Source: Eubacteriales Family XIII. Incertae Sedis bacterium (lineage in GTDB: Bacteria > Bacillota > Clostridia > Peptostreptococcales > Anaerovoracaceae). From it: a stretch of 39,633 nucleotides of DNA. The stretch's first letter is position 1. Each line of letters begins with the position of its first letter. Both the position numbers and the translations under genes were made by a program. Below, in pieces: positions 253 to 39,176 of the stretch. The notes beneath the pieces were generated by a model. It was not told the DNA's origin. It saw only the letters and a list, made by a program, of their open reading frames with translations, and searched no databases. The stretch is taken from positions 1 to 39,633 of the forward strand of contig JAISMX010000032.1 of assembly GCA_031276515.1 (NCBI GenBank), written 5' to 3'.

Positions 253-840
253 TTGGCAGATTATTCAATTATTTCCGATGTCAGCGCGCACATCGTGCGA
301 ATGCTGCGCGAGAAGATGTGTCCCGAGCCGATTCCCTCGCCGAACAACATCGAGGTGTCGTCGCCGGCGGAGCAGGACGTCGACTACATCCTGGGTCTCT
401 ACTTGTACGACATCCGCGAGGAGGGCGAGATCGCCCTGCGCTCGATCCGCGTGGGCAACGCGCGTTCGAGGAAGCCGCCCAAGCCCTACAGCCTGTACTA
501 CATGATCTTCATCAACGGATCGTCGCAGATGGGCCTGAAGGCGCACGACATACAGAAGATCATCGGGCGGGCGGCGCAGATCGTAAACGACGGAAACACG
601 GTTTCCCCGAACGCGCTGCAGACCTGGCTGGAGGCCGAGGAGTCGCCCGTCATCCTGTCGCCGGCCAAAATCAGCTTGGACGACAAGGTTCGCGTATGGT
701 CGGCCATAAACAAGCCCTATCAGGTCAGCCTGTTCTACAGGGCGGCGCCGGTGTTCCTCTCCAGCGAGATCGTGATGGAGGACACGCCCGTTCGGGAGGC
801 GCGGTTTACGCTCGCTTCGACGGGCGAGGAGAACGTATGA
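253..840 (+). CDS. DUF4255 / Pvc16-Afp16-like CIS cap (tail terminator) protein
   Basis: 195 aa. Pvc16/Afp16-type proteins cap the distal end of the sheath-tube in extracellular contractile injection systems. The N-terminal pattern (ISDVSAHIVRMLREKM, then an acidic region and the strand LGLYLYDIREE) and the later LYYMIFING segment are typical of DUF4255. The start is TTG at 253, chosen because AGGAG at 241-245 is correctly spaced and no ATG fits. The family assignment is from sequence appearance. The cap role comes from the family and from the sheath, tube and baseplate genes that follow. In Afp/PVC loci this gene is last, whereas here it precedes the sheath. Confidence 0.82.
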   Translation: MADYSIISDVSAHIVRMLREKMCPEPIPSPNNIEVSSPAEQDVDYILGLYLYDIREEGEIALRSIRVGNARSRKPPKPYSLYYMIFINGSSQMGLKAHDIQKIIGRAAQIVNDGNTVSPNALQTWLEAEESPVILSPAKISLDDKVRVWSAINKPYQVSLFYRAAPVFLSSEIVMEDTPVREARFTLASTGEENV

Positions 841-2197: not shown

Positions 2198-3901
2198 ATG
2201 GCAGAATATCTTTCCCCGGGCGTATATGTGGAAGAGTACGATTCTTCCCCGCGCGCCATTGAAGGCGTCGGCACAAGCACGGCGGGCTTCATCGGCATGA
2301 CGGTCAAAGGCCCCGCGGTGGGCGCACCCTCGCTCGTGACGAGCTTCGCCGATTTCACGCGCCAGTTCGGCGGATTCCTGCCCGAACACACGCACGGCGA
2401 GTTCCGCTATCTCCCGAGCTCCGTGGAGCAGTTCTTCGTGAACGGCGGCACGCGCTGCTACGTCAGCCGCGTGATCCCCGAGGACGCGAAGGTTGCGACG
2501 GCCTCGCAGGGGATCCTGTCCCTGCGCGCCGCCAACGAAGGAAAATGGGGCAACAAGATCACGATCGGCTTCATTTCCACGAACAAGCGCAAACTCCAGC
2601 TGATCGCCGCCGAAAGCGATCTCGTGTACACGGCCAAGTCCGCCGCGGGCTTCCGCGAGGGAGACCTCGTGGAATTCGCGGGCGAGATCAACAGCATCGC
2701 GGCGATATCGGAAAACACGATCACATTCGAGAAAAGCTTCGCGGCAAGCCCCGTGGACGACGCGCTGATCCCCAAGACCTTGGTCTATTCCGTCGAGATG
2801 GACATCGTGATCCGCGCCGGCGCCGAGGTCGAGACCTACACGGGCGTGACGCTCAACGAGTCCTCGTCCGCTTATCTCGGCAAGAAGCTGATGGCCAGCT
2901 CCATCGTTGTGGCCACGTTGGAATCGCCTTCCGATCCCCTCGTGAATCCCGTGTCCGCCATCTTCGGCGAAGGGAAGCTGAAAGGCTCGATCTCCTTCGA
3001 GGGCGGCAGCGACGGTTCCCTCGGCGCCGTCAACGCGGGAAGCTTCATCGGCACGGACAACGGCCCCGGCCGCAGAACCGGCCTGCAAGCCTTTGTGGAA
3101 AACAACGTCGCCAGCCTTCTGCTCGCGCCGGGCATCACGATCCCCGAGGTGATCGCCTCCTTGGCCGCGTACTGCGAGCGCGAGAAGAACTGCTTCGCCA
3201 TTCTTGACGTTCCGCGCGAGCTGATCAAGACCGGCGACATCATAGAGTACCGCAATCTGATAGACAGCACCTACGCGGCCTTCTACCATCCGTGGATACA
3301 GGTCTTCGACCGCGAAACCAAAAAGCCGGCATTTTTGCCTCCGAGCGGCGCGGTGGCGGGCGTGTTCTCGCGCACGGACGTGAGCCGCGGCGTGCATAAG
3401 GCGCCGGCCAACGAGATCATCAGCTGCACGGGGCTTTCCATCGGCTATACGGCGGGCGAGCAGGACATACTCAACCCGGCGGGCGTGAACCTGATCCGCG
3501 CGCTGCCCGGACAGGGCATCCGCATCTGGGGCGCGCGCACCGCAAGTTCCAACGCCGCCTTCAAGTACGTCAACGTCAGGCGTCTCTTCATCTTCGTGGA
3601 GCAGAGCATCAAGGCGGCGACGAACTGGGTGGTGTTCGAGCCGAACAATTCCTCGCTGTGGGCGCGCATACAGGTCACGATTTCGGCCTTCCTCGAGACG
3701 CTTTTCCGTTCCGGCATGCTGGCGGGCGAAACCGCCGACGAGGCCTTCTTCGTCGAGATAGGCCCGACGACGATGAGTCAGGACGACATCTTGAACGGCC
3801 GTCTGATCTGCAACATAGGCATAGCGCCGTCGCGTCCGGCCGAGTTCGTGATCTTCAGGCTGACCCAGTACACGGCGGAATCCGGCGCGGCGGCCGAGTG
3901 A
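2198..3901 (+). CDS. Phage-tail-like contractile sheath protein
   Basis: 567 aa. It forms the outer sheath whose contraction drives the inner tube. The N-terminus has the sheath signature (YLSPGVYVEEYDSSPRAIEG, then STAGFIG), and the C-terminal third has the conserved sheath core (NEIISCTGLSIGYT, then GVNLIRALPGQGIRIWGARTA, then the segment with FVEQSIK and FEPNN). The middle (about 120-270) is a variable surface insertion. The length is typical of Afp/Pvc-type sheaths. Only one sheath gene is present here, against three in Afp. It is followed by the tube gene after a 70-base AT-rich gap. Translation may depend on the hairpin-spaced SD described at 2152-2197. Confidence 0.95.
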   Translation: MAEYLSPGVYVEEYDSSPRAIEGVGTSTAGFIGMTVKGPAVGAPSLVTSFADFTRQFGGFLPEHTHGEFRYLPSSVEQFFVNGGTRCYVSRVIPEDAKVATASQGILSLRAANEGKWGNKITIGFISTNKRKLQLIAAESDLVYTAKSAAGFREGDLVEFAGEINSIAAISENTITFEKSFAASPVDDALIPKTLVYSVEMDIVIRAGAEVETYTGVTLNESSSAYLGKKLMASSIVVATLESPSDPLVNPVSAIFGEGKLKGSISFEGGSDGSLGAVNAGSFIGTDNGPGRRTGLQAFVENNVASLLLAPGITIPEVIASLAAYCEREKNCFAILDVPRELIKTGDIIEYRNLIDSTYAAFYHPWIQVFDRETKKPAFLPPSGAVAGVFSRTDVSRGVHKAPANEIISCTGLSIGYTAGEQDILNPAGVNLIRALPGQGIRIWGARTASSNAAFKYVNVRRLFIFVEQSIKAATNWVVFEPNNSSLWARIQVTISAFLETLFRSGMLAGETADEAFFVEIGPTTMSQDDILNGRLICNIGIAPSRPAEFVIFRLTQYTAESGAAAE

Positions 3902-3971: not shown

Positions 3972-4466
3972 ATGGCAACGGTAAATTCGTCGGGATTGTA
4001 TTATCCATTGACAAAAATGAACTTCCTCGTTACGGTGGACGGCGTCAGCGGCGTCGCCGCGTTCAACGAGGTGACGGGCATCGACGCGTCCGTCGACGTC
4101 ATAGAGTTCAGGCAGGGGAACGCGAACAGCTTGGCCCCCGTCAAGATTCAGGGACTCGTGAAGCACGGAAACATCACGCTGAAGATGGGCTACACGCGGA
4201 GTCAGGATTTCAAAATCTGGATTCAGAACTGCGTGAGCGAGCGGCGCGGCGAAACGCCCCGCCACAACGTGACGATAGAGCTGATCGACATCAACGACGG
4301 TTCTCCCCAGACCATCGTCGAAAGCACGATGGACGCGACCTTGACGTGGATACTCAAGGACGCCTGGGTCACGAAGTACACGGGTCCCGATCTCAACTCG
4401 TCCACGAGCGAGGTCGCGATAGAGTCCGTGGAGATCGCCTACGAAGAGCTTACGATTCCGAATTAA
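3972..4466 (+). CDS. Inner tube protein (gp19/Hcp-like phage tail region family)
   Basis: 164 aa. It forms the stacked hexameric rings of the inner tube. The layout matches the conserved phage tail tube family (TIGR02241/gp19): YYPLTKMNFLVTVDGV at the start, then FNEVTGIDASVDVIEFRQGN, then the LKMGYTRSQDFKIW segment, and a C-terminal strand with EVAIESVEIAYEELTI. The start ATG follows GGAGG at 3960-3964. The gap before it is strikingly AT-rich and has a TATAAT at 3936-3941 without a convincing -35 box. A GC-rich hairpin follows the gene. Confidence 0.93.
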   Translation: MATVNSSGLYYPLTKMNFLVTVDGVSGVAAFNEVTGIDASVDVIEFRQGNANSLAPVKIQGLVKHGNITLKMGYTRSQDFKIWIQNCVSERRGETPRHNVTIELIDINDGSPQTIVESTMDATLTWILKDAWVTKYTGPDLNSSTSEVAIESVEIAYEELTIPN

Positions 4467-4531: not shown

Positions 4532-4894
4532 ATGACAACGGTTTATGATTTTGAACTGCCGAAAGGCTATGTCGATTCGCAGGGTACCGTACACCGCAGA
4601 GGCAAGATGCGCCTCGCGACGGCCGGCGACGAGATCGGCGCCACGCGCGACCCGCGCGTGCTGTCCAATCCCTCGTATCTGACCATCGCGGTGCTGGCCA
4701 AGGTGATTACGGAACTCGAAGGCATGGACGCCGTGGTTCCCAACATCATCGAGCGCTTCTTCACGGCGGATCTGGCCTTTTTGCAGGACATGTACCAGCG
4801 GATCAACAACATCGAGCCGCCGACCATGACGGTCGTGTGCGAGAGCTGCGGGAACAGCATGCAGGTTCCCATAAATTTTACGCGAGAGGGATAA
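4532..4894 (+). CDS. Putative tail assembly chaperone-like protein (G-like)
   Basis: 120 aa. Small acidic protein between tube and DUF6760 genes, the position of the G-type tail assembly chaperone in contractile and long-tailed phages. It contains an N-terminal strand region (YDFELPKGYVDSQGTVHRRG), a helical centre (about 45-95) and a CxxC pair (CESCG) near residues 106-109 that could be half of a metal site. The SD AGAGG at 4521-4525 supports the ATG. The last codons contain an A AAT TTT slippery heptamer, and a -1 shift there enters the DUF6760 frame. Function is inferred from gene order. The family is not recognised with certainty. Confidence 0.6.
   Translation: MTTVYDFELPKGYVDSQGTVHRRGKMRLATAGDEIGATRDPRVLSNPSYLTIAVLAKVITELEGMDAVVPNIIERFFTADLAFLQDMYQRINNIEPPTMTVVCESCGNSMQVPINFTREG
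4873..4879 (+). other. Candidate -1 ribosomal frameshift site (A AAT TTT)
   Basis: In the chaperone frame the codons are ATA AAT TTT ACG, giving a heptamer of the X XXY YYZ type at 4873-4879, five codons before the stop. Slipping back one base reads AAA TTT TAC and continues, without a stop, through YARGITLYPEEA into the DUF6760 protein, giving a fusion of about 188 aa. A perfect 6-bp inverted repeat, CCCGGA (4902-4907) and TCCGGG (4919-4924), lies downstream. At 22 bases from the heptamer it is farther away than usual stimulators. Confidence 0.5.
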
Positions 4895-4914
4895 CGCTCT
4901 ACCCGGAGGAAGCG

Positions 4915-5097
4915 ATGTTCCGGGAAATGTCATTTATTTCCTATTACTTCCATTGGGGCCGCGAGGATGTGCAGTCGCTTTCGCACAACGAGCGCAGGCG
5001 CTGGTGCCGGGAAATTTCGGAGATCAACGCGAGCCTGAATCCCTCGGAGAAAAAAGAAAAAAGCATTTTGGAGCTCGGAAGAACGCCCGTGCGGTGA
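4915..5097 (+). CDS. DUF6760 family small CIS protein
   Basis: 60 aa from the ATG at 4915, with SD GGAGGA at 4905-4910. The core (FISYYFHWGREDVQSL, then HNERRRWCREISEINASLN) matches the DUF6760 family of small proteins found in contractile injection loci. The function is unknown. Its size and position fit the T part of a G/GT tail assembly chaperone pair. The frame stays open upstream of the ATG back to 4837, and the LYPEEA residues just before the Met look like part of the family sequence. This suggests translation may also enter from upstream by frameshifting. The GC-rich stem 4902-4924 overlaps both SD and ATG. Confidence 0.75.
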   Translation: MFREMSFISYYFHWGREDVQSLSHNERRRWCREISEINASLNPSEKKEKSILELGRTPVR

Positions 5098-5146: not shown

Positions 5147-5611
5147 ATGGCTGAAGACAAAAACACATGGGTGATCAACAAGGGTCTCAACCCGCTCGTA
5201 AACTTCAACTTCCTGCTCCGCGTGGAGGCGATGATAGACCTGCCGTGCAAGAGCGTGCGGGCTTTCACGCGCGAGCTGGAATACGAGCTGATACAGGAGG
5301 GCGGCCTGAACGATTACGTGCACATGCGGCGCAAACCCATTTCGAGGCCCTTTATACTGGAAGTCGAACGCTACGCGGGCGTGGATTACGTGGATCCCCT
5401 GCCCTTGGGCGCGGATCTGGCGCTGCCCGTGATGCTGCTCGTGAGCCGCAGGCAGGACGATTTCCTGTCCACGGCGCGCACCTACGCCTTTACGGGCTGC
5501 ACGGTGATCAAGAAGGTCTACGGGGAGCTCACAGCCGAGCAATCCGGTCTGCTGACGGATACGATTACCATCGCGTATCGCGAGATGGTCTGCGTGGACA
5601 TTCCGATATAG
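5147..5611 (+). CDS. Second tube-type protein (gp19-like, tube initiator candidate)
   Basis: 154 aa, a divergent member of the same tail tube family as the gene at 3972. It has NPLVNFNFLLRVEAM at the N-terminus, SRPFILEVERYAG in the middle, AYAFTGCTVIKKVYGEL-like strands (here TYAFTGCTVIKK), and a final AYREMVCVDI strand. In Afp/PVC a second tube paralogue (Afp5-type) starts the tube on the baseplate, and the position before the baseplate genes fits that role. The SD is weak (AAAGG at 5140-5144, very close to the ATG). The TAG stop lies inside the 9-bp direct repeat that flanks the following insertion. Confidence 0.85.
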   Translation: MAEDKNTWVINKGLNPLVNFNFLLRVEAMIDLPCKSVRAFTRELEYELIQEGGLNDYVHMRRKPISRPFILEVERYAGVDYVDPLPLGADLALPVMLLVSRRQDDFLSTARTYAFTGCTVIKKVYGELTAEQSGLLTDTITIAYREMVCVDIPI

Positions 5612-5812: not shown

Positions 5813-8575
5813 ATGCTGACACTGGATCGTCCCATAACCCTCACCGTTCGGGCGGACGCGCTCGCTCCGGCCGACGCGTTCGGCGAGAGGATCAAGGCGA
5901 ACTACGGGATCATGACGGCCGGCTTTTCCACCGAGGAACTGCTGTTCCTTCTGGTGAATCCGCCGGAGATACCCTATCAAGAAGGCGATTTCATCAACAT
6001 CGCGATGGGGAATGTCCGCCGGGACACGCAGAACATCGTGTTCGGCGTCGTGAACAACATCGTCAACCGCATATTGCTCGAGGACAAAAGCGCGCTCAGC
6101 TATCAGGACATCGTGTATCTGGATATGGCGCTGCGAAAGCTCGGCGTGGAAAACGTCGCGTCCTTCATGGAGCAGGTGCGCGTGCTTCGCGCGGAAGCGG
6201 GGAGCGCGCACAGCTTGACGAAGTTGTATGAGGACAACCTGCGCGTGCTGCGGGAAACGCTGACGCGCGAGTTTGCGCCGCGCGGCGGCGGCGCGAAAAC
6301 GGCGGACGCGGAAAGCGAAGCCCCGGGCAAGGATCGCGCACTCTACCTGTACGGCGAGATATACAAGAGGCTGCGCGTGCCGGAAATCGTTCGCTCGTTC
6401 GCGCGCTTCGCGCGGAGCGCTTCGGAGCTGCATTCGCGCGTGGACGCGCGCGAGATGCGAATCTCGGAACACCTGAAAGCCACGATGGTCTTCGCCTTGA
6501 ACGAGTATAGGCGAGAGATCCCGGCCTTTGGATACGGAGACGCATATTATAATAGAAATCTCTACGAAACGGGCGATGTCCTCGCCCCGCCCGGCGACGA
6601 AAAATCCGCGCTGCGCCGGGCGTTGTCGGCCGCCCTGCTGCAGGTCGTCGACAATGTGACGACGACGCGGGCGGAGTATCCGGCGAACCGGCGGGCCGTT
6701 TGGCTCGACGTCACGGAAGCCCTGCGCGAATCGGCGCGAAGCTCCGTGGAACGCTTCTTGTCCTTCCGCGAATACGCGGCCGCCGGTGCGGACGCGCGCC
6801 GCGAACCGGCGGACCTGCGCAGTCTCACCCTGCTGTCGCAAAGCGAGGAAAGCGTGCTGTCTCACCATCTAAGCGAGCTTCGCGTATTGGACGATCGCCG
6901 GGACGGCAGGGCGGCGGAAGGCGAAGTCGCGGACGAGACCGCGCGGCCGGCGCAGAGCTTCGCGCCCGAAGAAGCCGAAACGCGCGCCTTGCGGGAGCGC
7001 GCGCGGGAAACCCTCCTCGAACTCGCGCGCGTACACAGCGCGCGGCTGCGCTCCTTGGAGACGCCGGCGCCGCGACTGCGGGAGCGCGTCGCGGAAGAGG
7101 CTCCGCCGCAGCCGCTTGCGGAAAGCCGCGGCATCCTTGCGGCGGAGCGGGCCGAGGCGCGGACGCCGCGCGCGGAAGGAGCGGCGATTTCGCTCACGCA
7201 CGCCGAGCGGACGCCCGGCGCGGAGGCCGGGGAGGCCGTCCGCGCCGGAGAGACGGACGCGCGGCGCGCGGAAGAAGCGGGAGCGGCCCCTTTCGCGCCG
7301 GCCCCGGAGGCGGAGACCGGCGCGCCGCGCGCGCCCGTCCGCGCGGCGGCATCCGAGCCTTTCTCGCGCGCGAAAGCGGCGGACGCCGCCGCGCGTGAAG
7401 AACCGGAGGGCGAAACCCTCGTTTTCGCGGGAGAAACGACCCTGATCGAAACCGGCGCGCAAGGGGATGGCAAAGGATACGCGCCCGCGTTTTCCGGCAA
7501 ATCGGACGCGGACGCCGCCGCCCGGGACGAAGCGATTGCGGCGGCGCTGTCGCGCATCATGGAAACGGCGCCCGCGCTCCGCGAAACGGAGCGCGCGGAA
7601 ACCCTGCTTTCCGAAATCGAGCGCGAGACGCGCATCCTCGCTTCCGAAGCGGCGGCGCCGCGCGCGGAAGGAAGCGCGGACGCCGCCGAAAGCGCGCCGC
7701 GCGCGGAAGCGGGCGGCGCCGAGCGGGACGAAAAAGTCCTGCGCGAAATGCTGGATCGCGTCGACAGGGAGAACAAGGAGCGCCTGGAACGTCTGCGGGA
7801 ACTGCAAACGAACACCGCGCATGCCGAACGCGCCGCGCCGCGCCCCGACAAACGCCGCATCATGCGGGACGCGCTCAAGGCCATCGAAGACCCGGAGACG
7901 GTCTTTTTGGAAGCCTTTGCGGGGGAGGATGCCGCGCCGGAGAGGCTCTCCGGGGAAGCCGGCGGCGAACCCATGGTTTTCGCGGACGAAGCCTCGCGCA
8001 ATGTCGTGGAACTCCTGCGGCTTTTAGAGAAGGATCCGGCGGCGGCCGCGGCCGCCGGCGTCACGGTCGCGCAGGACCCCTCCGCGCTGATCGCGGACAT
8101 CGCGGCCGTGGAGAAGGCGCGCGCGGAGACCGCCGCGCCGCCCGCGGCGGCGCTCGGTCACATCGCGCCGCGCGAAGACCGGGAGCGCCTTGTCGAGCTG
8201 AGAACCCTCGCCTCCGAGACGCCGCACGCCGCGCGGACGCAAGCCCCCGGTCCGGCATGGGAGCGGGCGCCCATCATACACAAAAGAACGCCCGAGGCGC
8301 CGGACATGGAAGAATTCCTGCGCGAGCGGCAAGAGCGGCGCGCGATCACGGAGCGCACGGCGCGCGACGAAATCAGGGAGACGACCGTGCGGACGAACGA
8401 AATCGTCACCCACGGCGAACAAATGGCGCAGAACCTCGTCGCCGGCAGAGCCGACGACATCACGGAGATGATCAACAAGACATTGATGCGCCAACTCGGA
8501 ACCATCACGGACAGGGTGTACGGACAGCTCGAAAAGAAGCTGAAGAACGAAAAATCCAGGAGAGGCGGGATATAA
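5813..8575 (+). CDS. Large Ala/Glu/Arg-rich CIS protein, tape-measure candidate
   Basis: 920 aa; SD AAGGAGAG at 5803-5810 fixes the ATG. Residues 1-180 look globular. Residues 190-380 are helical. Residues 380-750 are strongly low-complexity (Ala, Arg, Glu, Pro), with recurring APRAE/ARRAE units (for example APRAEGSADA and APRAEAGGAE). The end (about 820-920) is again helical and conserved-looking (MEEFLRERQERRAITERTARD, then DITEMINKTLMRQL). It has no membrane segment and no known enzyme motif. It lies between tube/chaperone and hub genes, the usual place of the tape-measure gene in contractile tails, and no other gene here could set tail length. That role is inferred. Confidence 0.6.
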   Translation: MLTLDRPITLTVRADALAPADAFGERIKANYGIMTAGFSTEELLFLLVNPPEIPYQEGDFINIAMGNVRRDTQNIVFGVVNNIVNRILLEDKSALSYQDIVYLDMALRKLGVENVASFMEQVRVLRAEAGSAHSLTKLYEDNLRVLRETLTREFAPRGGGAKTADAESEAPGKDRALYLYGEIYKRLRVPEIVRSFARFARSASELHSRVDAREMRISEHLKATMVFALNEYRREIPAFGYGDAYYNRNLYETGDVLAPPGDEKSALRRALSAALLQVVDNVTTTRAEYPANRRAVWLDVTEALRESARSSVERFLSFREYAAAGADARREPADLRSLTLLSQSEESVLSHHLSELRVLDDRRDGRAAEGEVADETARPAQSFAPEEAETRALRERARETLLELARVHSARLRSLETPAPRLRERVAEEAPPQPLAESRGILAAERAEARTPRAEGAAISLTHAERTPGAEAGEAVRAGETDARRAEEAGAAPFAPAPEAETGAPRAPVRAAASEPFSRAKAADAAAREEPEGETLVFAGETTLIETGAQGDGKGYAPAFSGKSDADAAARDEAIAAALSRIMETAPALRETERAETLLSEIERETRILASEAAAPRAEGSADAAESAPRAEAGGAERDEKVLREMLDRVDRENKERLERLRELQTNTAHAERAAPRPDKRRIMRDALKAIEDPETVFLEAFAGEDAAPERLSGEAGGEPMVFADEASRNVVELLRLLEKDPAAAAAAGVTVAQDPSALIADIAAVEKARAETAAPPAAALGHIAPREDRERLVELRTLASETPHAARTQAPGPAWERAPIIHKRTPEAPDMEEFLRERQERRAITERTARDEIRETTVRTNEIVTHGEQMAQNLVAGRADDITEMINKTLMRQLGTITDRVYGQLEKKLKNEKSRRGGI

Positions 8576-8578
8576 CGC

Positions 8579-9337
8579 ATGGGCATCAAGGACGATCTCA
8601 AAAGCAGCATCCTCGGAAGCACGGAGCCGGCCTACATCGTCGTGCACGATTTCCGCAAGTCCGCGGCGTTCATCGGCGAAGGCGCGGCGTATTCCGTATC
8701 GGGAATGACGGCGCGGGCTTTGAGCGGCGCGGGAGCGGACGTGGAGAGCTTCGAATCGCAGGACAAGGTGTTCCGCGTGCAGTACAATCCTTCGGAATTG
8801 GAGTTTTACGCCTCGGCGCCGCAGGAGCGGGTGCGGGATCTTCGCCGGAGAGGGAGCGACGAAAACCGCGTCGTGCAGGACAGCCCTCTGCCCGGAAAGG
8901 TGGAGATGAGCATGAGCCTGTGGTTCGACAAGATGTCGCAGGCGAGCTCTTTCGCGCTCGAAAAATCCCTCGCGCCCACGAGCGTCACGGGCGTCACGAA
9001 CATCGCCAAATCGTTCATGAAGGAAGAGACCGTGCGAGATGAGGTGGAGGGCTTTATCGCCGCGCTGCGCAATCGCCACACGCAATGGATCACCCTGCAT
9101 TGGGCGGATATTACGTTCTCCGGCGTGCTCTTCAGCGTCAGCGCGCAGTATACGATGTTCTCCATGTCCGGTCTGCCCGTGCGCGCGCGGGTATCGATCC
9201 GCGTGCGGCAGGAAGCGAACGAGCGGGATATGGCCGACTGGGTCGAGCGCGATTTTGAAGCCGCCTTTGGAGGCGAGCAAAGCAATCTGGTGCTTCCGGA
9301 GCAGCGCGCTTCCAATCTGTTGAACTTGGGTTTGTAG
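8579..9337 (+). CDS. CIS tube-adaptor protein, copy 1 (Afp7/Pvc7 N-domain-like)
   Basis: 252 aa. The sequence resembles the contractile injection system tube protein family (N-terminal part of Afp7/Pvc7): FRVQYNPSELEFYASAP, then KVEMSMSLWFDKM, then TLHWADITFSGVLFSVSAQY, and PVRARVSIRVRQE. Such proteins link the inner tube to the hub and spike. The C-terminal LysM-like domain often present in this family is absent. It starts 3 bases after the 920-aa gene with GGCGGGA as SD. A paralogue follows 13 bases later, and both end in the same NLLNLG(L/F) tail. Confidence 0.8.
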   Translation: MGIKDDLKSSILGSTEPAYIVVHDFRKSAAFIGEGAAYSVSGMTARALSGAGADVESFESQDKVFRVQYNPSELEFYASAPQERVRDLRRRGSDENRVVQDSPLPGKVEMSMSLWFDKMSQASSFALEKSLAPTSVTGVTNIAKSFMKEETVRDEVEGFIAALRNRHTQWITLHWADITFSGVLFSVSAQYTMFSMSGLPVRARVSIRVRQEANERDMADWVERDFEAAFGGEQSNLVLPEQRASNLLNLGL

Positions 9338-9350
9338 GACGGAGTGAGAT

Positions 9351-10133
9351 ATGGGTATAAAGGAAATGGGCGCCAACCTCACGGCGAGCGCCTTCGGGAA
9401 TCCGAAAAAGGCATTTTTGCTCATTCACAAGAGAACGGAAATGGGAATCGGACTCGACGTCGAGACCCTCGCGGAGAAGGCCATCCTTCTGAGCGCGAGC
9501 GTAAACCCGGACACGGCGACGATGTCGGGCATATTCGGAGGCGGGGAAAACACGCACATTTTGCAGGTGCAGTACAACCCCGCGTCCATCGAATTCATGG
9601 CGAATTCGGAGCCTATCCCCGCGAGCAGGCTGCAGCAGAACGTCTTTTCCGACATACCGCCGCAGTTCAACAAGCCGCCTTCGGTGACGATGTCGGTTCA
9701 GCTCGTGTTCGACGCGGTGAACGTCAAGGACAGCTTCATGGCGGACAAATTCAGCCCCAAGGTCTCCGATCTCGTCTCCGTGCCGGCCGCGATCAGAAAC
9801 AGGGCGAACTACACGGTGCAACCGCAGACGAACGCGCTCCTGGCCATGCTGATGCGCAAGGAGACCCAGCACGTGATCTTCTACTGGTCCGGTCTGACGT
9901 TCAACGGAATCGTGGTGGAGGCGCAGGCGAAATACACGATGTTTTCCGTCTCCGGCCGGCCCGTGCGCAGCGTCGTGAAGCTCAGGATATCGCAGAATCT
10001 GGTTGGCAGCGCCGATGAGATGTACTGGAACAAGGCTTTGGACAAGTGCTTCGGCGGCGCGGATATGGGCGGCGCCTTCGGCGGCCAATCCAAGGGGCAG
10101 AACGTCGGCAATCTGTTGAATCTCGGCTTTTGA
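9351..10133 (+). CDS. CIS tube-adaptor protein, copy 2
   Basis: 260 aa. Tandem paralogue of the preceding gene, sharing the order LQVQYNPASIEFMANSEP, VTMSVQLVFDAV, VIFYWSGLTFNGIVVEAQAKY, PVRSVVKLRISQ and the terminal NLLNLGF. The two copies differ between these blocks, so they have probably specialised, for example into separate ring layers between tube and hub. It also lacks a LysM domain. The SD is GGAG near 9341. A small hairpin follows. Confidence 0.8.
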   Translation: MGIKEMGANLTASAFGNPKKAFLLIHKRTEMGIGLDVETLAEKAILLSASVNPDTATMSGIFGGGENTHILQVQYNPASIEFMANSEPIPASRLQQNVFSDIPPQFNKPPSVTMSVQLVFDAVNVKDSFMADKFSPKVSDLVSVPAAIRNRANYTVQPQTNALLAMLMRKETQHVIFYWSGLTFNGIVVEAQAKYTMFSVSGRPVRSVVKLRISQNLVGSADEMYWNKALDKCFGGADMGGAFGGQSKGQNVGNLLNLGF

Positions 10134-10164
10134 GCGGTGCGGCGGGTCCGGCCCGCAAGACCGC
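10134..10164 (+). other. Small intergenic hairpin before the hub gene
   Basis: GCGGT (10134-10138) pairs with ACCGC (10160-10164), and GCGGG (10142-10146) pairs with CCCGC (10152-10156). It starts right after the stop codon of copy 2, and no T-run follows. It may mark an mRNA processing or stability point. Confidence 0.3.
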
Positions 10165-10183
10165 GGCCACAGGAGGTTAAAGT

Positions 10184-11362
10184 ATGGCGGCATTGTCCCT
10201 CGGCGGCCTTTCCGGAGTGGGCGGCGGAAGCAATTTCGACGCGCTCAAAAAAAAATACAAGAACTTCTACTACCCGCAGGTGTTCATCGAGCTGGGCGGC
10301 AAGGAATTCAAGGACAAGAGCGGTCAATTGGCGGTCAACGACGTCAGCGTCGAACTGACCAGCGGCTACGAGGCCTCCGTCGCGAGCTTTCGCATCTACG
10401 GCGTCTACCGGCAGGAGTCGGGCAAGTTCGAGTACGAGGAGCTCAAAAAGCAGGTGCTTCTCGGCAACGCGCTCACGATCAAGCTCGGCTATCTGGGTGC
10501 CTTGGAGACCGTTTTCACGGGCTTCGTGGCGGGCGTGAACTTTTCTTTCGCGCTGGGCGGCCTGCCCTGCGTCGAGGTCACGGGCATGGACGTCAAGGGC
10601 ATCATGATGTCGGGGAGCTACGCCGAACAGCTCGCCGCCACCTCCTACGGGGAGGCCGTGCGGGAAATCCTGCGCAAGACGGCCTACGAACGCTTGCAGG
10701 ACGGCTCGGCGATCACGAGCATCGCCGTCAGCGACACGCCGGATAAGGAAAGCGGCGACCGCGGCGCGTCCTCCTACACCATCGAGATGTCCTCCGAAAG
10801 CGATTACGAGTTCGTCGTGAAGGCCGCGAAGAAGTTCAACTACGAGTTCTTCACGGATCGCGGAAAGGTGTATTTCCGCAAGGCGAAAAGCGGCTCGGAG
10901 ACGCTGCCCGATCTCGGCATCGAAAACGGGCTCATCAACTTCGACATAGGTTACAGCATCACGGGCCTCGCGGAGACGATAGAGGCGCGCTCCGTGGACG
11001 CCGGCACGGGAAAGATCATCTCGTCGAAGAAGAAGTTCACGAACAATATTTCGCTGGGCAATTACGCGAAGAAGCTCATCTCGAAGAGCCGTCACGTGTA
11101 CATCGACCCGACCATAGAGTCCAAGCGGCACGCGGACGCGCGCGCGGATTCGCTGCTCGAAACGATGAGCTATCGCCTCGGCGCTCTGAACTGCGACTGC
11201 ATCGGTCTGCCCGAGCTGCAGCCCGGGCGCTTCATGAAGATCACGGGGCTCGGCTCGCCGGCGGAGAATCGCTTCTATGTCACGAACGTGACGCATACCG
11301 TATCCGCCGAAGAGGGATATCGCGCGAAGCTGGTCGGCTGCGCCGATTCGGTGAAGAAATGA
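10184..11362 (+). CDS. Baseplate hub protein (phage late control D / gp27 / VgrG N-terminal-like)
   Basis: 392 aa. It corresponds to the hub trimer that joins tube and spike. It shows the gpD/gp27 pattern: an N-terminal strand domain with FYYPQVFIELGG and VNDVSVELTSGYEASVASFRIYGV, a second barrel around VFTGFVAGVNFSF and EVTGMDVKGIMM, a linker with repeated ITSIAVSDTPD-type loops, then SDYEFVVKAAKKFNYEFFTDRGKVYFR, typical of late control D. The SD AGGAGG at 10171-10176 supports the ATG. The OB-fold and spike are in the next gene, so VgrG function is divided between two proteins, as with P2 D and V. Confidence 0.88.
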   Translation: MAALSLGGLSGVGGGSNFDALKKKYKNFYYPQVFIELGGKEFKDKSGQLAVNDVSVELTSGYEASVASFRIYGVYRQESGKFEYEELKKQVLLGNALTIKLGYLGALETVFTGFVAGVNFSFALGGLPCVEVTGMDVKGIMMSGSYAEQLAATSYGEAVREILRKTAYERLQDGSAITSIAVSDTPDKESGDRGASSYTIEMSSESDYEFVVKAAKKFNYEFFTDRGKVYFRKAKSGSETLPDLGIENGLINFDIGYSITGLAETIEARSVDAGTGKIISSKKKFTNNISLGNYAKKLISKSRHVYIDPTIESKRHADARADSLLETMSYRLGALNCDCIGLPELQPGRFMKITGLGSPAENRFYVTNVTHTVSAEEGYRAKLVGCADSVKK

Positions 11363-11414
11363 GCGGGCCGGGCGGGCGCGGCGGGCGAAGACGCGGGAAA
11401 GGAATGAAAGAGGC

Positions 11415-12227
11415 ATGAGCCTGTACGATATCATCGATGAAATCAGCGAGCGCGGCGCGACGAAGACCGAGACGGGCGACACGCGCGTCCACGGCGTGAT
11501 GCTCGGCGTCGTCGCGAAGAACTACGACAAGGACATGCCCGGCCGCGTCTGCGTGACCGTGCCGACGCGCGACAAGGACAAGAACGAGCTGAAATGGGCG
11601 CGGCAGGCCGCGCTTTCGAGCGGGGAAAAATGGGGGCATTACTTCCTGCCGGAGGTCGGCGATCAGGTGCTGTTGGCCTTCGAGGGGGGCAACATAGAGA
11701 AGCCCTACGTCATAGGCTGCGTCCCCAAGGACAACGCGAAATTTCTCGGCGGCTCGGTGGACGAGCATAACCAAATAAAGAGAATAGTCACAAAAAACGG
11801 AAGCACCCTCGCCTTCGAGGACAACAAGGAAGGCGACGGCGCCAAGGACAAGATCAGCATAGAGACGGCGGGCGGATCGCACGAGCTGCTGCTCGACAAC
11901 GAAAACAAGCTCATACGCCTGACCGACAAGGCGAAGGAGAACATGCTCGAAATCAAGACCGAGACCGGCCAGATGACGATCAAGGCCAAATCGCGCCTGA
12001 CGATAGAGGTGGGCGACGGCATCAAAATGGTGTTCAACGGGGAATCCGGATCGGTGAAACTGGAAGCTTCGGAGTTCTCGATCCAGACCTCCAATCAGTT
12101 CAAGGCCAAGAGCGACGGCATGATCAAGCTGGACGGGGCGCAGATGAGCCTGAACGCCTCTTCCATGTTCAAGGCGGAGTCGGGCGGGATGGTGAATATT
12201 TCAGGCGCGCCCATCAAGATAGGGTAA
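11415..12227 (+). CDS. Spike protein (baseplate assembly V / gp5-like OB fold plus beta-helix)
   Basis: 270 aa. Residues 20-110 form a gpV/gp5 OB-fold (GVMLGVVAKNYDKDMPGRVCVTVP, WARQA, then VGDQVLLAFEGGNIEKPYVIGCV). Residues 130-270 contain short repeated hydrophobic/polar strands (SIETAGGSHELLLD, then MTIKAKSRLTIEVGDGIKM, SVKLEASEFSIQTSNQFKAKSDG) that would form a triple-stranded beta-helix needle. There is no lysozyme domain and no C-terminal effector. The PAAR-like protein at 1758 would sit on its tip. The SD is AAAGGA about 11 bases upstream. Confidence 0.88.
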   Translation: MSLYDIIDEISERGATKTETGDTRVHGVMLGVVAKNYDKDMPGRVCVTVPTRDKDKNELKWARQAALSSGEKWGHYFLPEVGDQVLLAFEGGNIEKPYVIGCVPKDNAKFLGGSVDEHNQIKRIVTKNGSTLAFEDNKEGDGAKDKISIETAGGSHELLLDNENKLIRLTDKAKENMLEIKTETGQMTIKAKSRLTIEVGDGIKMVFNGESGSVKLEASEFSIQTSNQFKAKSDGMIKLDGAQMSLNASSMFKAESGGMVNISGAPIKIG

Positions 12228-12233
12228 AGTGAC

Positions 12234-12656
12234 ATGAGTGAAAACAACGAAGCTTTCTTGGGAACCGGCATGAAGTTCCCGCCTCGAATCAATAAAAATT
12301 CCGGGCGCTTTGCCGTCAGCTCCGGGGCGGAAAACGTAAAGGAATCCGTCTACATCATACTGATGACGGGGCTCGGCGAGCGATGGCTGGAGCCGAATTT
12401 CGGCAGCCGCATCATGCGCTACACCTTCCTCGACACCTCGCCGGCCATGCTCAACATGCTCTCCTCGGAGATACGGAACGCCATCCTCGGGCAGGAGCCG
12501 CGCATTTCCGACGCGGACATAGACTTTGAGGAAAACCCCGGCGGCGGCAGCCTGATCGTGAACATCTCCTACAGGCTTCGCGAGAGCAATACGATCGAGA
12601 ACATGGTATTTCCTTTCTATCTGGGCTTGGGCGACACGGAGAACGCGGATGAATAA
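12234..12656 (+). CDS. gp25/GPW-like baseplate wedge protein
   Basis: 140 aa. It has the gp25 core: KFPPRINKNSGRFAVSSGAENVKESVYIILMTGLGERWLEPNFGS, then ILGQEPRISDADIDFEENPGG with the family's EPR motif, and a final strand of YRLRESNTIENMVFPFYL. gp25 starts sheath assembly at the baseplate. It starts 6 bases after the spike gene, and its stop overlaps the ATG of the next wedge gene by 8 bases, indicating coupled translation. Confidence 0.92.
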   Translation: MSENNEAFLGTGMKFPPRINKNSGRFAVSSGAENVKESVYIILMTGLGERWLEPNFGSRIMRYTFLDTSPAMLNMLSSEIRNAILGQEPRISDADIDFEENPGGGSLIVNISYRLRESNTIENMVFPFYLGLGDTENADE

Positions 12657-15600
12657 TTTCGAGTTTAAGACGGACGAACGCGGCGCGGCCGAAATCCGCG
12701 CGCAGATCAAGGCGCTGGCGGCCTCCTACACGCCGGAATGGCTTTTCAGCGAGCAGAACCCGGACGTGGGTTCCGTGATAGCCATGATCTTCGCCGAGCA
12801 GATGGAAGGGAACATCCTGCGCCTGAACCGCGTGTTCGAGAAGTTCCATACGGAATTCGTCAATCTGCTCGCCCTGTCTCCGCAGCCCGCGCAGCCCGCG
12901 CGCGGCGCGGTCGTGTTCTCGCTGGTCGGGGACACCGTCTCCGGCGTCGACGTTCGCAGGGGAACGAAGCTGCTCGGATACGGCGAAAACGACGACATAC
13001 CCATCATCTTTGAAACGGAGTCCGATCTGCACATCACGGACGCGAAGCTGCGGGACATCATCTCCGTCTCTCCCGCCGCCGGCAAGATCGTCTCCATCAT
13101 GGGCGCCGCGCGCCGCGTTTCGATCTTCGACGAGGACGCGGCCCCGGCGGAAGCGCCCGCGGCGGACGGGATACCCTCTTTCAGGCTGTTCGACGCCTCG
13201 GGCGCGAACATCGCCCGAAACGCCTTGATCTTCTACCACCGAAGCCTTTTTGACATGACGGCGGGCGGAGAGATCTCCGCGCTGGTGAAGGGCGTCCATG
13301 CGGACGACACGGCGTCGTTTGCCGATCCGGCGCGGTATCGCTGGCTCTACGTCTCCGAGAGCGGTCCGCGCCCCTTCGAGCGCGTCGCGTCGCGCGACGG
13401 CGCGATTTGGCTCGCGCCCGACGCCGACGCCGTAAAGGTCAGCCGCGGCGGCGAGCCGTTTTCCGCCATCATACTCGAAGCGCTGGGTCCGATACGAAGG
13501 AAAACGGACATCGAAAGCGTCGGCTTCAGCTCCTCCCTGGAAAGCGCGATTCCGGATTTCGTCACCCACAACGCCTCCGATCTGGAGGTGGGCGAGTTCA
13601 TGCCCTTCGGCGCCACGGCTTCGATTTTCGACGAATGCTACATCGGCGGCGACAGCGTGTTTGGAAAGCGCGAAGCTTCGGTCTGCATCCGCTTCACATT
13701 GGAATTTAAAGAGAAATTTGTAAATTTTTCCGCAGAGGACGAGATGGCGAATCTGAAGGTCATCAAGCGGAAGCCCAGGTCTGTGAATTTCGACACCGCG
13801 CACACGGCCGTGGAGCGCATCGCCGTCGAATACTTCAACGGCACGGGCTGGCGCCGCGTCGCATTCTCTCACGACATATCCGCGCTGTTTGCGGGCGAAG
13901 CCTCGGGCGAGCTCGCCATCGACTTCATCTGCCCCGAGGACTGGACGCCGCTCACCGTCGGCGGATACACGGGTCGCTGTCTGCGCATACGCGTGACGCA
14001 GGCGGACAACTGCTACATCCAGCCCTGCGTTCACAGGATGCCGCTTCTGCGGAATTTGACGCTCTCCTATCATTATCCCGACGGCTATCGCGCGCCGGAC
14101 GTATTGGAGCGCGTTTCCGGCACCGAGACCACGGACCTCACGGCCGCCGCGCGGAAGAAGCATCCCTTTGCGGCCTTCCTGCCCATGCCCTACGCGCACA
14201 ACGAGCTCTACCTCGGCTTCGACCGCAGGTTTTCCGGGGCGCCGGTCAGTCTGCTGTTCGACATAGAGCGCAGCGCGCGCTTCGGCAGGCGCCGGCTGTC
14301 CTTTGAATATTCTTCGCCTTTGGGTTTCAAGGAACTGAACGCGGCGGACAGCGTGGGAGACATGACGGGGCCGGGGATGCTGCAATTCATTCCGCCGGGC
14401 GATTTCGCGGAGCGCGAGGTGGAGGGCGTGAAGCGCTTCTGGCTGCGCATATCGGACAGGAACGGCAGCTTCGACGCGCCGGAGGCCCACAGGCCGCTGC
14501 TGCGCAACATCTTCCTGAACGCGGCGCAGGTGCTCAACGCCGAAACGCTGCCGACGGAGAGCTATCACATCGACGCCGTCCGTCCCAACATGTCGTTTCG
14601 GCTCCCCGCCGGCGACATCCTGTACGCGGAGGTCTTCGTGAACGAGCTGGGCCTGCACACGGGGGCGGCCATGCGCCGCATGGCGGCGGAAAGACCGTCG
14701 GACGTGCGCATATCCCACAACACCGCGGGCGAGATCAGCGAATTCTTCGTGCGCTGGGAGGAGGTTGAGAATTTCGATCTCTCGGGACCTTCGGACAGGC
14801 ACTACCGCATAGACCGCATGAACAACACGCTGCATTTCGGCGACGGCGTCTCCGTGATGATTCCCAAGGCGGGCGCCGCCGAATCCTTTACGGTGACGCT
14901 GCGCTGCTGCCGGGGCGACGCGGGCAACCTGCCCGCCGGCGCGATCGGCGAACCCATGGGCAGACTGCTGCACATAGACGGCGTATCGAACCCCCTGCCG
15001 ACCTGGGCGGGCGGCAACATGGAGAACAGCGACCGCATGCACGCGCGCAGCGCGAACATCCTCTGCTCGCAGAACAGGCTGCGCAGCGTGCCGGACTTCC
15101 TGCGCGAAGCGAGGCTGTATTCCGAAGCCGTGGTGGGCGCGGCCTGCGCGTCCGGAACGGACAGATACGGGCGCAGGGACGACAGGCGCATCACCGTCGC
15201 CGTCCTGACGCGCGACTATTACAAGGGAACGCACAGTTTCGCGGGCATAAAAGAGGGTCTCGAAAAGCGCATCCTGTCCAAGTGCGACGCGACGATATCC
15301 CGCGACATGCTGACCGTCACGGAACCCGTGTACGTCATGCTGTCCGTTTCGGTGTTCGCGGGCATTTCGGACGAAAGGGATGCCTTTGCGGTGAGAGAGA
15401 CGATCATCGACGCGCTCACGGGCTTCCTGTCCCCCATCGCCAAGGACGGGAGCGCCAATTGGGAGATCGGCCTGCTTCCCGACGAGGTGCAGATACGGCT
15501 TCTGCTGAATTCGCTGCACGTCCCGGCGAGCATCCGCCGCATCGTGACCTCGGCGCGCTACGCGGACGAAAAGGGCTTCAAGGAGCGGAATTTGTCCGAT

Positions 15601-15666
15601 GTCCGCACGGGTCCGTTTATGATCGGCGTGAATGGGCGGCACACGGTTCACCTGATTAGATCGTAG
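12649..15666 (+). CDS. Large baseplate wedge protein (Afp11/Pvc11, baseplate J-like)
   Basis: 1005 aa. The N-terminus (FEFKTDERGAAEIRAQIKALAASYTPEWLFSEQNPDVGSVIAMIFAEQMEGNILRLNRV, quoted only for residues near 1-60) is the type seen in Afp11-like baseplate J proteins. A long beta-rich middle (about 90-800) is followed by a J-like end (SAVPDFLREARLYS-like region here as VPDFLREARLYSEAVVGAACAS, then RRDDRRITVAVLTRDY, then a DATISRDMLTV segment). It builds the wedge ring around the hub together with gp25 and the next protein. The gene overlaps gp25 by 8 bases. Confidence 0.87.
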   Translation: MNNFEFKTDERGAAEIRAQIKALAASYTPEWLFSEQNPDVGSVIAMIFAEQMEGNILRLNRVFEKFHTEFVNLLALSPQPAQPARGAVVFSLVGDTVSGVDVRRGTKLLGYGENDDIPIIFETESDLHITDAKLRDIISVSPAAGKIVSIMGAARRVSIFDEDAAPAEAPAADGIPSFRLFDASGANIARNALIFYHRSLFDMTAGGEISALVKGVHADDTASFADPARYRWLYVSESGPRPFERVASRDGAIWLAPDADAVKVSRGGEPFSAIILEALGPIRRKTDIESVGFSSSLESAIPDFVTHNASDLEVGEFMPFGATASIFDECYIGGDSVFGKREASVCIRFTLEFKEKFVNFSAEDEMANLKVIKRKPRSVNFDTAHTAVERIAVEYFNGTGWRRVAFSHDISALFAGEASGELAIDFICPEDWTPLTVGGYTGRCLRIRVTQADNCYIQPCVHRMPLLRNLTLSYHYPDGYRAPDVLERVSGTETTDLTAAARKKHPFAAFLPMPYAHNELYLGFDRRFSGAPVSLLFDIERSARFGRRRLSFEYSSPLGFKELNAADSVGDMTGPGMLQFIPPGDFAEREVEGVKRFWLRISDRNGSFDAPEAHRPLLRNIFLNAAQVLNAETLPTESYHIDAVRPNMSFRLPAGDILYAEVFVNELGLHTGAAMRRMAAERPSDVRISHNTAGEISEFFVRWEEVENFDLSGPSDRHYRIDRMNNTLHFGDGVSVMIPKAGAAESFTVTLRCCRGDAGNLPAGAIGEPMGRLLHIDGVSNPLPTWAGGNMENSDRMHARSANILCSQNRLRSVPDFLREARLYSEAVVGAACASGTDRYGRRDDRRITVAVLTRDYYKGTHSFAGIKEGLEKRILSKCDATISRDMLTVTEPVYVMLSVSVFAGISDERDAFAVRETIIDALTGFLSPIAKDGSANWEIGLLPDEVQIRLLLNSLHVPASIRRIVTSARYADEKGFKERNLSDVRTGPFMIGVNGRHTVHLIRS

Positions 15667-15677
15667 AGGAAAGAATC

Positions 15678-17798
15678 ATGCTTGAAAGCATCAATCTAAA
15701 CGACCAAAGCTATACGGAACTGCTGGAGGACGCGATATCCAGAATCCCGCTGTACGGCAGCGAATGGACCAATTTCAACCCGTCGGATCCGGGTGTGACG
15801 ATCCTGCAAAACCTGACCGCGTTCAACTATCTGCAACAGACCGCCATCAACACCGTGACGGAGGCGATCAAGTTCAAGCTGCTCGCGCTGCTGGGCTTCT
15901 CGCCGCGCAAGGCGCGCCCCGCCGAACTGCTCGCCGCCTTCGCGGGCGCGCGGGAAACGCGGCTCTGCAAATATCGCAAATTCCTGTCGCAGGATACGGT
16001 GTTCGAGGTCGCGGAGGATGTGCTCTGCCGGCCCCTTGAGGCGGAGGCCATGTACTGCGAAAGCGAGGGCGTTTGCTCCGACGTGACGAGCCTGCTCGAC
16101 AGATCGCTTGGCGTCGGCGCCGTCGCCTTGTTCGGCGCGCCGGCCCGCGCGGGCGCCTCGCTCTGCTGCGTGCTGAACGGGAAGCCCGATCTTTCAAAGG
16201 AATTCATACTCTATGCCGTCGTGCATGGAGAGGATGCGCGCAATCCCTTCGAGGAGGGCGCGGACAGGCCCTTCGCGGAACTCGCCTGGCGGCTGTACAC
16301 CGAAAACGGATGGGAAAATTTGGAATACACGGACGGGACGCACGGTTTCCTCGTGAGCGGCGAAATCGTCCTGAAGCCCGCGCCGGGTCTCGAGCCCGCC
16401 GTGTTCGACGGGATGCCCGTCGCGGGTTACGCGCTGCGCTGCGAGCTGCTCTCCCACGAATATGACCTGACGCCGCGCATTTGCTCGCTGACGGTGAATC
16501 TGACGCGCTTCGTGCAGCGGAACACCATGGCCGCGATGTACGCCTTGCGCGGCGGCGACTCCATTTTCCTCGATCTCGGCCCCGCCTATCCGCACATAAG
16601 CGTTTACGGCCGCGAGAACGCGGCGGCGCCTTATCGCGCTTACAGCGCTTTGGCGGAGAAACCGGAATGCCGCGAAGGCGAGGAGCGCTTCTTCGCCGCC
16701 GACCGGCTCGAGGACGGCAGACTGCGCTTCCGCTTCGGCGAGGAGGGCTTCGGCCCCCCGCCCGGCGAGGGCGAGGGCGATTTGATCGTGCTCTGCCGCA
16801 CGGAGGAGATGGAAAGAGCGCGCTCTCTCGGGTCCGTGTTCGGCTACGTCGATCAGGAATTTGACATCGATCTCGCGGGCGACATCGTTCGCGACGACTT
16901 TGCGCTCATGCTCGAAACGACCGCCCTCTCCGGAGAAAAAACCTACGCTTTCGTGCGGCCGAACGAGCCTTCGCCCGAGGGCTTTGTCTACGAGCTGCTT
17001 CCCGGAAACAACAAGATATGCGTGCGGCGGCCGGAGATCGGCCGCGACTGCAGGGCCTACGTCGCGTCCTGCGCCATGACGCTCGGCGCGGAGGGCAACG
17101 TCCGCGAGGAAAACACGCTGGAGGTGTTCATGGACGCGGAGCGCGCGGGCGTCACCTTCGTGAATCCCGCGCCGGGGAGAGGCGGCCTCACGGCGGAAAC
17201 CCTAACCAACCTGCGCAGCCGCTTTTCCGCTTCCATCAAGACGCCGTGGACGGCCGTCACGGCTTCGGATTACGAGACCATCGTCATGTCCGCGCCGGGC
17301 CTGTGCATCCACAAGGTGAAAGCGCTGCCGAATCCGTCGGAAAACCTCGTCCGCATCGTGGTCAAGCCGCGCGGCGAGGAGCGCTTTCCGGGCCTGTCCG
17401 CGAGCTATATCAGGCGCATAACGGATTTGCTGTCCTCCCGCGTCATGCTCGCGTCCAAGTTCGCGCTGGTGCAGCCGCAGTATCTGCCCATAGACGTGAA
17501 GGGCGCAATCTACGTCAAGAGCCGCTTCGCGGGCGCCCGCGCGGACATCGAGCGCGCGCTCAATGAAGCTTTGGACTTCGTGTCCTCCGACGCGGAATTC
17601 GGCACGCCCGTGCTGTTCGACAAGGTTTTCGGCGCGATATCCGCGCTGCCCTGCGTCATCACGATCATCGACCTCGCGCTGACGCCGGGCGTTAGGGGAC
17701 TCTCCGCGATGAGCGGACCCGACATCATACCGGACGGGCGCTGCCTGTGTTATCCGGGTAAGTTTTCGATAGAAGTCAACGCGCGCGCGGAAAGATAA
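15678..17798 (+). CDS. Second baseplate J-like wedge protein (Afp12/gp47-type)
   Basis: 706 aa. The N-terminus (NDQSYTELLEDAISRIPLYG, then EWTNFNPSDPGVTILQNLTAF) and the C-terminal block (TAVTASDYETIVMSAPGL, then VRIVVKPRGEERFPGLS, then QPQYLPIDVKGAIYVKSRF) are typical of baseplate J/gp47-related wedge proteins. The SD GAGGA at 15666-15670 supports the ATG. Its predicted partner is the large wedge protein just upstream. It is shorter than Afp12 proteins that carry extra domains. No sugar-binding or receptor domain was recognised. Confidence 0.85.
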   Translation: MLESINLNDQSYTELLEDAISRIPLYGSEWTNFNPSDPGVTILQNLTAFNYLQQTAINTVTEAIKFKLLALLGFSPRKARPAELLAAFAGARETRLCKYRKFLSQDTVFEVAEDVLCRPLEAEAMYCESEGVCSDVTSLLDRSLGVGAVALFGAPARAGASLCCVLNGKPDLSKEFILYAVVHGEDARNPFEEGADRPFAELAWRLYTENGWENLEYTDGTHGFLVSGEIVLKPAPGLEPAVFDGMPVAGYALRCELLSHEYDLTPRICSLTVNLTRFVQRNTMAAMYALRGGDSIFLDLGPAYPHISVYGRENAAAPYRAYSALAEKPECREGEERFFAADRLEDGRLRFRFGEEGFGPPPGEGEGDLIVLCRTEEMERARSLGSVFGYVDQEFDIDLAGDIVRDDFALMLETTALSGEKTYAFVRPNEPSPEGFVYELLPGNNKICVRRPEIGRDCRAYVASCAMTLGAEGNVREENTLEVFMDAERAGVTFVNPAPGRGGLTAETLTNLRSRFSASIKTPWTAVTASDYETIVMSAPGLCIHKVKALPNPSENLVRIVVKPRGEERFPGLSASYIRRITDLLSSRVMLASKFALVQPQYLPIDVKGAIYVKSRFAGARADIERALNEALDFVSSDAEFGTPVLFDKVFGAISALPCVITIIDLALTPGVRGLSAMSGPDIIPDGRCLCYPGKFSIEVNARAER

Positions 17799-38777: not shown

Positions 38778-39176
38778 CTATAATGTTTTTAGGTATGCTT
38801 CCACCGCCAAAAGAAAAATTTTCGCGTTTTCAAGCTGATCCTTCACTTCGGATTTGGAGATTACATAGAAATCTTCATAATCGCTGTTGTTGCGCACATC
38901 AAAAGCATTTTCGATTATTTTGGACAGTTCGTGCGAGAATACATCGGTTTTGACATATCGCTGCCTAAACGCCGAAATGATACCGGAATGCCGTTTCGAG
39001 TCAAACCCGTCCAAAGCCAATACCGCACGCATCGCATGAAAGATGCAGTAATATGAACGATTTGCGGAATCCTTGCACAAATCCGCGTTCACAAGCGATT
39101 CCGCGGCAGCCAGACAACTCCGAGCTTGCTCAATGCGCGCTTTGGCCAATGCAATTTGTCGTATGTCAGGCGGCAT
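38778..39176 (-). CDS. hepT: HEPN-domain protein (HepT-type toxin candidate)
   Basis: 132 aa from the ATG at 39176, with GGTGG about 8 bases upstream and overlap with the MNT stop; a frame extension to 39203 has no SD. The all-helical HEPN pattern is clear (KARIEQARSCLAAAESLVN, then ANRSYYCIFHAMRAVL, then FDVRNNSDYEDF). In HepT RNases the active motif is RX4-6H, often RX4HXY. Here it is R95-NNSD-Y100, with Tyr in place of His, as in the MNT-linked HEPN branch of Pfam HEPN proteins. Ribonuclease activity is therefore uncertain. Its partner is the MNT protein encoded upstream. Confidence 0.87.
   Translation of the reverse strand: MPPDIRQIALAKARIEQARSCLAAAESLVNADLCKDSANRSYYCIFHAMRAVLALDGFDSKRHSGIISAFRQRYVKTDVFSHELSKIIENAFDVRNNSDYEDFYVISKSEVKDQLENAKIFLLAVEAYLKTL

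Follow-up and report, generated by a model that had tools for sequence, protein, structure and literature searches.

Probable programmed -1 ribosomal frameshifting as the source of DUF6760 domains in contractile injection systems of cellular genomes

In the current analysis we have identified, in a 39,633-nucleotide stretch of DNA from an Eubacteriales Family XIII bacterium (contig JAISMX010000032.1; the whole stretch is referred to here as the window), a junction of two overlapping reading frames at which the domain DUF6760 is very likely made by programmed -1 ribosomal frameshifting, in a manner like that of gpG/gpGT of phage lambda, as part of a cellular contractile injection system (CIS). 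The junction has a defined anatomy which is conserved among relatives, lacks a conserved start codon for the second frame, carries one of three kinds of slip site and, in one class, is followed by a covarying hairpin. On the basis of sequence comparisons, frameshifting is proposed with high confidence as the origin of DUF6760 in the window and its relatives in Clostridia, and with good, somewhat lower confidence for the whole family. With the latter degree of confidence DUF6760 may be regarded in general as a frameshift-made C-terminal domain of the CIS assembly chaperone and not as an independent gene, in Bacillota, Actinomycetota, Cyanobacteriota, Pseudomonadota and Spirochaetota, the slip sites G GGG GAA with hairpin, A AAT TTT and T TTT TTN having replaced one another while the recoding was kept. 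A role of the two products as a ratio-controlled chaperone pair is suggested by analogy and is favoured with moderate confidence.

The features of the window locus are listed in Table 1. The codons ATA (4871-4873), AAT (4874-4876) and TTT (4877-4879) of ORF1 give the X XXY YYZ phase, and four codons (ACG CGA GAG GGA) lie between TTT and the ORF1 stop; the in-phase A AAT TTT that a preliminary description had placed five codons ahead of the chaperone stop is thus read directly at 4873-4879. Following a shift of -1, reading would continue with TAC at 4879 and meet no stop before the TGA at 5095-5097, YARGITLYPEEA preceding the ATG at 4915. The predicted fusion comprises 116 + 72 = 188 residues, in agreement with the stop-free passage and 188-residue product expected in that description. 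The match to PF20546 (DUF6760; E 1.1e-16, 61.1 bits against a curated cut-off of 27) starts at an isoleucine, codon 4891, which is eight codons upstream of the first ATG of the frame, and the domain therefore begins upstream of ATG 4915.

Table 1. Features of the window at and around the ORF1/DUF6760 junction
Feature	Position	Strand	Remarks
ORF1, tail-assembly-chaperone-like, 120 aa, upstream (G-like) product	4532..4894	+	ATG 4532, TAA 4892-4894; PHROG 508
Slip site A AAT TTT	4873..4879	+	0-frame ATA AAT TTT; -1 frame AAA TTT TAC
TAA stop, unshifted product	4892..4894	+	four codons past slip site
-1 frame segment, 72 codons + TGA: YARGITLYPEEA + DUF6760 domain (T-like part)	4879..5097	+	PF20546
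Whole putative recoding unit: 120-aa product normally, 188-aa product on -1 shift	4532..5097	+	
Rival ATG start, GGAGG at 4905-4909	4915..4917	+	SD 5 nt upstream
Inner tube protein, same operon	3972..4466	+	TIGR02241, Phage_T4_gp19
Contractile sheath	2198..3901	+	
Second tube-like / tube adaptor protein	5147..5611	+	weak match
Pvc16_N tail-terminator-like protein	253..840	+	marks locus as contractile injection system
Baseplate part: two CIS_tube proteins, Phage_base_V spike, gp25, Baseplate_J	8579..17798	+	

The pair of ORF1 and DUF6760 adjoins the tube gene, directly 3' of it. The window encodes the eCIS set of Pvc16-type terminator, sheath, tube, spike, gp25 and baseplate J, and no head, capsid or terminase families were found among the window ORFs scanned. 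No gene of the window was recognised as that of a tape measure. A protein of 920 residues (5813-8575), rich in Ala, Glu and Arg and with no Pfam match, is encoded in the interval that separates the second tube-like gene from the CIS_tube genes and could possibly be a tape measure or scaffold.

The survey of DUF6760 junctions comprised 133 loci, reduced to 127 distinct junctions, that were collected from whole genomes of the phylum and class of the window, from 80 named GTDB contigs (mainly Lachnospiraceae, Oscillospiraceae and Family XIII) and from plasmid records, with Streptomyces, Rhodococcus, Nostoc, Pseudanabaena, Brasilonema, Rhizobium, Paraburkholderia, Paenibacillus, Treponema and Haloferax. 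In 122 of the 127 distinct junctions an in-phase slip site precedes DUF6760, which occupies the -1 frame; this supports the G/GT-like frameshift arrangement suggested earlier. These 122 fall into an A class (A AAT TTT, 89 junctions), a G class (G GGG GA(A/G) or G GGG GGA, 29) and a T class (T TTT TT(A/G), 4), to which later sampling added four T TTT TTT loci (L136-L139) and one more A AAT TTT locus (L134). An in-phase XXXYYYZ is present at the right place in all 93 A- and T-class junctions; the chance level, taken from the rest of the ORF1s, is 76 of 15,549 codon positions (0.5%). The pattern is already present in the DUF6760 loci from the genus, family and order of the window, and conservation of the heptamer, on which the preliminary description had made its proposal depend, was found throughout the Clostridia sampled together with its phase and the stop-free -1 overlap. 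In other lineages the heptamer is replaced by other known slip sites with the -1 relation unchanged, and the arrangement reaches Actinomycetota, Cyanobacteriota, Pseudomonadota and Spirochaetota, the loci outside Bacillota being represented by plasmid records only. The earlier description is in this respect too narrow, as the arrangement is general for DUF6760 and not particular to the window locus.

A few junctions depart from the pattern or are incomplete. In one locus (L128, reverse strand, around position 1500) ORF1 and DUF6760 share one frame and are separated by a single TAG (GYIKD*HYQEAAF), as if stop-codon readthrough served as the recoding event or the gene were in decay. Two loci (L020 and L112) have the G site and a broken ORF1, and another (L081) lies at a contig end and has the slip site. 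In L053 and L094 the ORF1 stop immediately follows the slip site (AAT TTT ACT TAA) and the -1 frame is unchanged.

The letters of the slip site are constrained beyond the amino acids that they encode. Synonymous codons were shuffled within each ORF1 of the 89 A-class loci, and among the 115 columns the heptamer codons NTA and AAT rank as the top two (z 26.8 and 26.2). In this class the third letter of the codon that precedes Asn is A without exception. Where this codon encodes Leu it is CTA or TTA in 33 of 33 loci (CTA makes up only 1% of Leu codons elsewhere), Ile is always ATA (23% elsewhere) and Val always GTA (20% elsewhere); likewise Asn is always AAT (46% elsewhere) and Phe always TTT (78% elsewhere). 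All 29 loci of the G class use GGG for the Gly (39/199 elsewhere), and in all 29 G is the last letter of the codon before it (128/274 elsewhere), the amino acid of that codon varying among Leu, Trp, Ala, Thr, Ser, Met and Pro; since the loci are related, these codon counts are not independent observations, and kinship is controlled in part by reference to the remaining columns of these genes.

The main alternative is the production of two separate proteins, with DUF6760 initiated at a start of its own that is coupled to the end of ORF1 (ATG 4915 with GGAGG in the window; ATG, GTG, ATA, ATC or CTA near the stop elsewhere). We consider it improbable. ATG 4915 does have a well-placed Shine-Dalgarno sequence, databases list the Streptomyces pair as separate genes, and the ORF1 stop is overlapped by a GTG in Streptomyces and by an ATG in Rhizobium; such an overlapping GTG is found in five Streptomyces-type loci and an overlapping ATG in two other loci, so coupled initiation may still operate in those seven. 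The junction of an archaeal relative on a Haloferax plasmid (L111) is a plain ATGA with a normal separate start and no slip site, so separate existence of the two proteins is apparently possible. However, the equivalent of ATG 4915 is kept in only 15 of 81 A-class loci, and 87 of 123 loci are devoid of any ATG, GTG or TTG in the stretch from the stop at which the -1 frame opens to an invariant YP motif, the sole invariant ATG of the DUF6760 frame lying past this motif. Both the domain and the coding selection begin upstream of ATG 4915: directly past the ORF1 stop the entropy by codon position in the DUF6760 frame is 0.53/0.24/1.42 bits, which is the pattern of selected protein-coding sequence upstream of any conserved start. 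Separate initiation also leaves unexplained the AAATTTT frozen at synonymous sites and the hairpin of the G class. In public annotation the DUF6760 frame is either missed or given ATA or ATT starts (a Brasilonema plasmid, L107 1501-1647; L103 and L106), as is expected of an unrecognised frameshift.

Two further explanations retain the overlap of frames and dispense with ribosomal slippage. Dual coding, in which the -1 frame would be translated from further upstream and the letters conserved for other reasons, is extremely improbable for the window, where a GTG at 4837 falls in the -1 frame and this frame stays open over more than 300 nt upstream of the stop, and it is already refuted at the family level. 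In 66 of the 89 A-class loci the -1 frame is blocked by a stop no more than 30 nt ahead of the site (median 9 nt) with no start between, and in L136, L137 and L139 a TGA stands directly before the slip site. Transcriptional slippage at the A/T or G run, yielding mixed mRNAs that fuse the frames, is highly improbable. The runs consist of three As and four Ts or of five to six Gs, which is short for polymerase slippage, and the codon-phase constraint and the architecture of spacer and hairpin fit ribosomes, although cases of transcriptional slippage are on record for genes of bacterial secretion (PMC5009743, PMC4256274).

Frameshifting by the ribosome accords with the structure that follows the G-class site. 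In members from Bacillota, cyanobacteria, Rhodococcus, Paraburkholderia and Treponema the site is followed after 5 or 8 nt by a hairpin GGCTACC/GGTAGCC, and spacers of 5-9 nt are the most studied for -1 frameshift sites (PMC5009743). In the alignment of this hairpin 90% of the cells are paired and 5 of the 10 pairs have changed on both sides; slid versions are 33-64% paired, and the true register stands above both slid and shuffled controls. The Streptomyces-type G loci share no hairpin register, single loci often folding strongly in other registers. A conserved downstream hairpin was rejected as a stimulator of the A class, which shows no strong structure conserved past the site (mean z -0.3 with dinucleotide shuffles and -0.7 with synonymous resampling); a structure 5-9 nt past the slip site is not clear in the window and not conserved in the class. 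The GC-rich stem noted earlier over the Shine-Dalgarno sequence and ATG is present in the window (-19.6 kcal/mol, z -1.4) but is not conserved in the A class. An upstream stimulator resembling a Shine-Dalgarno sequence was also considered for the A class, and the weak stretch found is mostly explained by the amino acids FEVP. Phage P2 E/E+E' slips at T TTT TTG with no downstream hairpin (PMC3091744) and in this resembles the T and A classes; a 3' structure is not required for frameshifting, because P2-type sites are also without one.

A tree of the joined ORF1 and DUF6760 sequences requires six changes of slip-site class (the minimum possible is three) with the -1 phase kept throughout, the tree being rooted at the midpoint only and having several long branches and some unsure placements. 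The G class forms a broad base, and the A and T types lie within Bacillota. The recoding is retained while the letters that cause it were exchanged.

The ORF1 of the window matches PHROG 508, 'tail assembly chaperone' (E 4.6e-7), a result obtained for 29 of 29 ORF1s tested from the window and its relatives, and the identification of ORF1 as an assembly chaperone in the preliminary description is thereby supported. Weak matches to Phage_TAC_7 (E/41/14) and Gp41_Mu were obtained for a few relatives. By fold the ORF1 model (pLDDT 87) is closest to phage proteins, among them the hub assembly proteins of T4-like baseplates (best viral match E 2.8e-7), with weaker matches to Mu FS-gp41 (E 0.05) and the HK97 tail assembly chaperone. 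Because of these family and fold matches, the likeness to the frameshifting phage chaperones holds for the first part of the fusion, ORF1. No sequence relative of ORF1 was found among GenBank phages. Comparison with the PDB by sequence gave no convincing relative. The DUF6760 model consists of three helices (mean pLDDT 76.5), the first of which starts ahead of ATG 4915, at the tenth residue encoded by the -1 segment. DUF6760 has no tblastn match in 50,697 phage records, no confirmed relative in IMG/VR viral contigs and no fold match in the PDB; T domains, to which it might still be related, diverge widely.

From these comparisons we infer the occurrence of the shift in vivo, its efficiency and the binding partners of the products. 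The majority of ribosomes would stop at TAA 4892 and release the 120-residue chaperone. A minority would slip back by one base at A AAT TTT, with tRNA-Asn and tRNA-Phe pairing again on AAA TTT, and would add the 72-residue DUF6760 extension to give the 188-residue fusion. Lambda gpG/gpGT, P2 E/E+E' and Mu gp41 serve as models for the roles of the two forms. On this analogy the tape measure or hub protein would be coated by the short form, tube subunits would be recruited via the DUF6760 domain of the scarce fusion, and assembly of the injection tube would be tuned by the relative amounts of both.

The lambda slip site is G GGA AAG, and frameshifting is also known for the Mu tail chaperone (gp41). 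The arrangement described here shares with lambda gpG/gpGT and the chaperone frameshifts of dsDNA phages, in which the mechanism is well known (PMC5009743), the two overlapping ORFs with a -1 slip near the end of the first, the short chaperone with its C-terminally extended form beside the tube gene, and a first ORF of the tail-chaperone class; it differs in belonging to headless injection systems of cellular genomes and in having DUF6760 as second domain. The similarity in sequence of P2 E/E+E' and Mu gp41 to ORF1 is marginal, and A AAT TTT and G GGG GAA differ from their slip sites. GGGGGAA (the 'fivetwo' motif) is a recurrent site in actinophage tail chaperones (PMC10885494) and is found in corynephage phi16 with a predicted 3' RNA structure (PMC5506516); the slip letters of the G class are identical, whereas the actinophage chaperones are phage genes with another second domain. 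The use or annotation of G GGG GAA (PMC10885494) and of the P2 site T TTT TTG (PMC3091744) in phage tail chaperones supports frameshifting here. A AAT TTT was not found among the efficient E. coli sites named in one review (PMC5009743). A large survey of frameshifting contains, for tail chaperones, a phage HK97-like cluster (PMC3711429). The mechanism is thus known from phages and has here an unusually wide distribution with switching of slip sites.

The Streptomyces plasmid loci have the order sheath, tube, ORF1 and DUF6760 in common with the Streptomyces CIS (CISSc) and other eCIS, for which no frameshift is described. SCO4251, a protein of unknown function, is present in purified Streptomyces CIS particles (PMC10020575) and may, by gene order only, be the counterpart of ORF1. 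A literature search that covered few subscription journals found no description of frameshifting in contractile injection systems and no paper on DUF6760.

Contractile injection systems are studied and engineered as devices for protein delivery, and their assembly chaperones are hardly characterised. If frameshifting is the origin of DUF6760, the current annotation as two genes, with ATA or ATT starts or with a gene missing as in Brasilonema, would be wrong for the whole family, and any expression construct in which the two ORFs are split up or recoded would no longer yield one of the products. The model of the gpG/gpGT ratio from lambda would become testable in a machine that is not a phage, in workable hosts such as Streptomyces, and the replacement of slip sites offers a natural experiment on the requirements of a frameshift signal. 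Should the general reading hold, control of chaperone stoichiometry by recoding would be an ancient and general feature of injection systems.

ORF1 of the window (4532-4891) and its relatives have a single C-terminal CxxCG knuckle that immediately precedes the slip site, and a His and a Cys are invariant in DUF6760. It is conceivable that these residues form a shared metal site in the fusion. At the far end of the window (38778-39510, minus strand) a HEPN protein is encoded beside a nucleotidyltransferase (MNT), a pair that resembles HEPN/MNT toxin-antitoxin systems.
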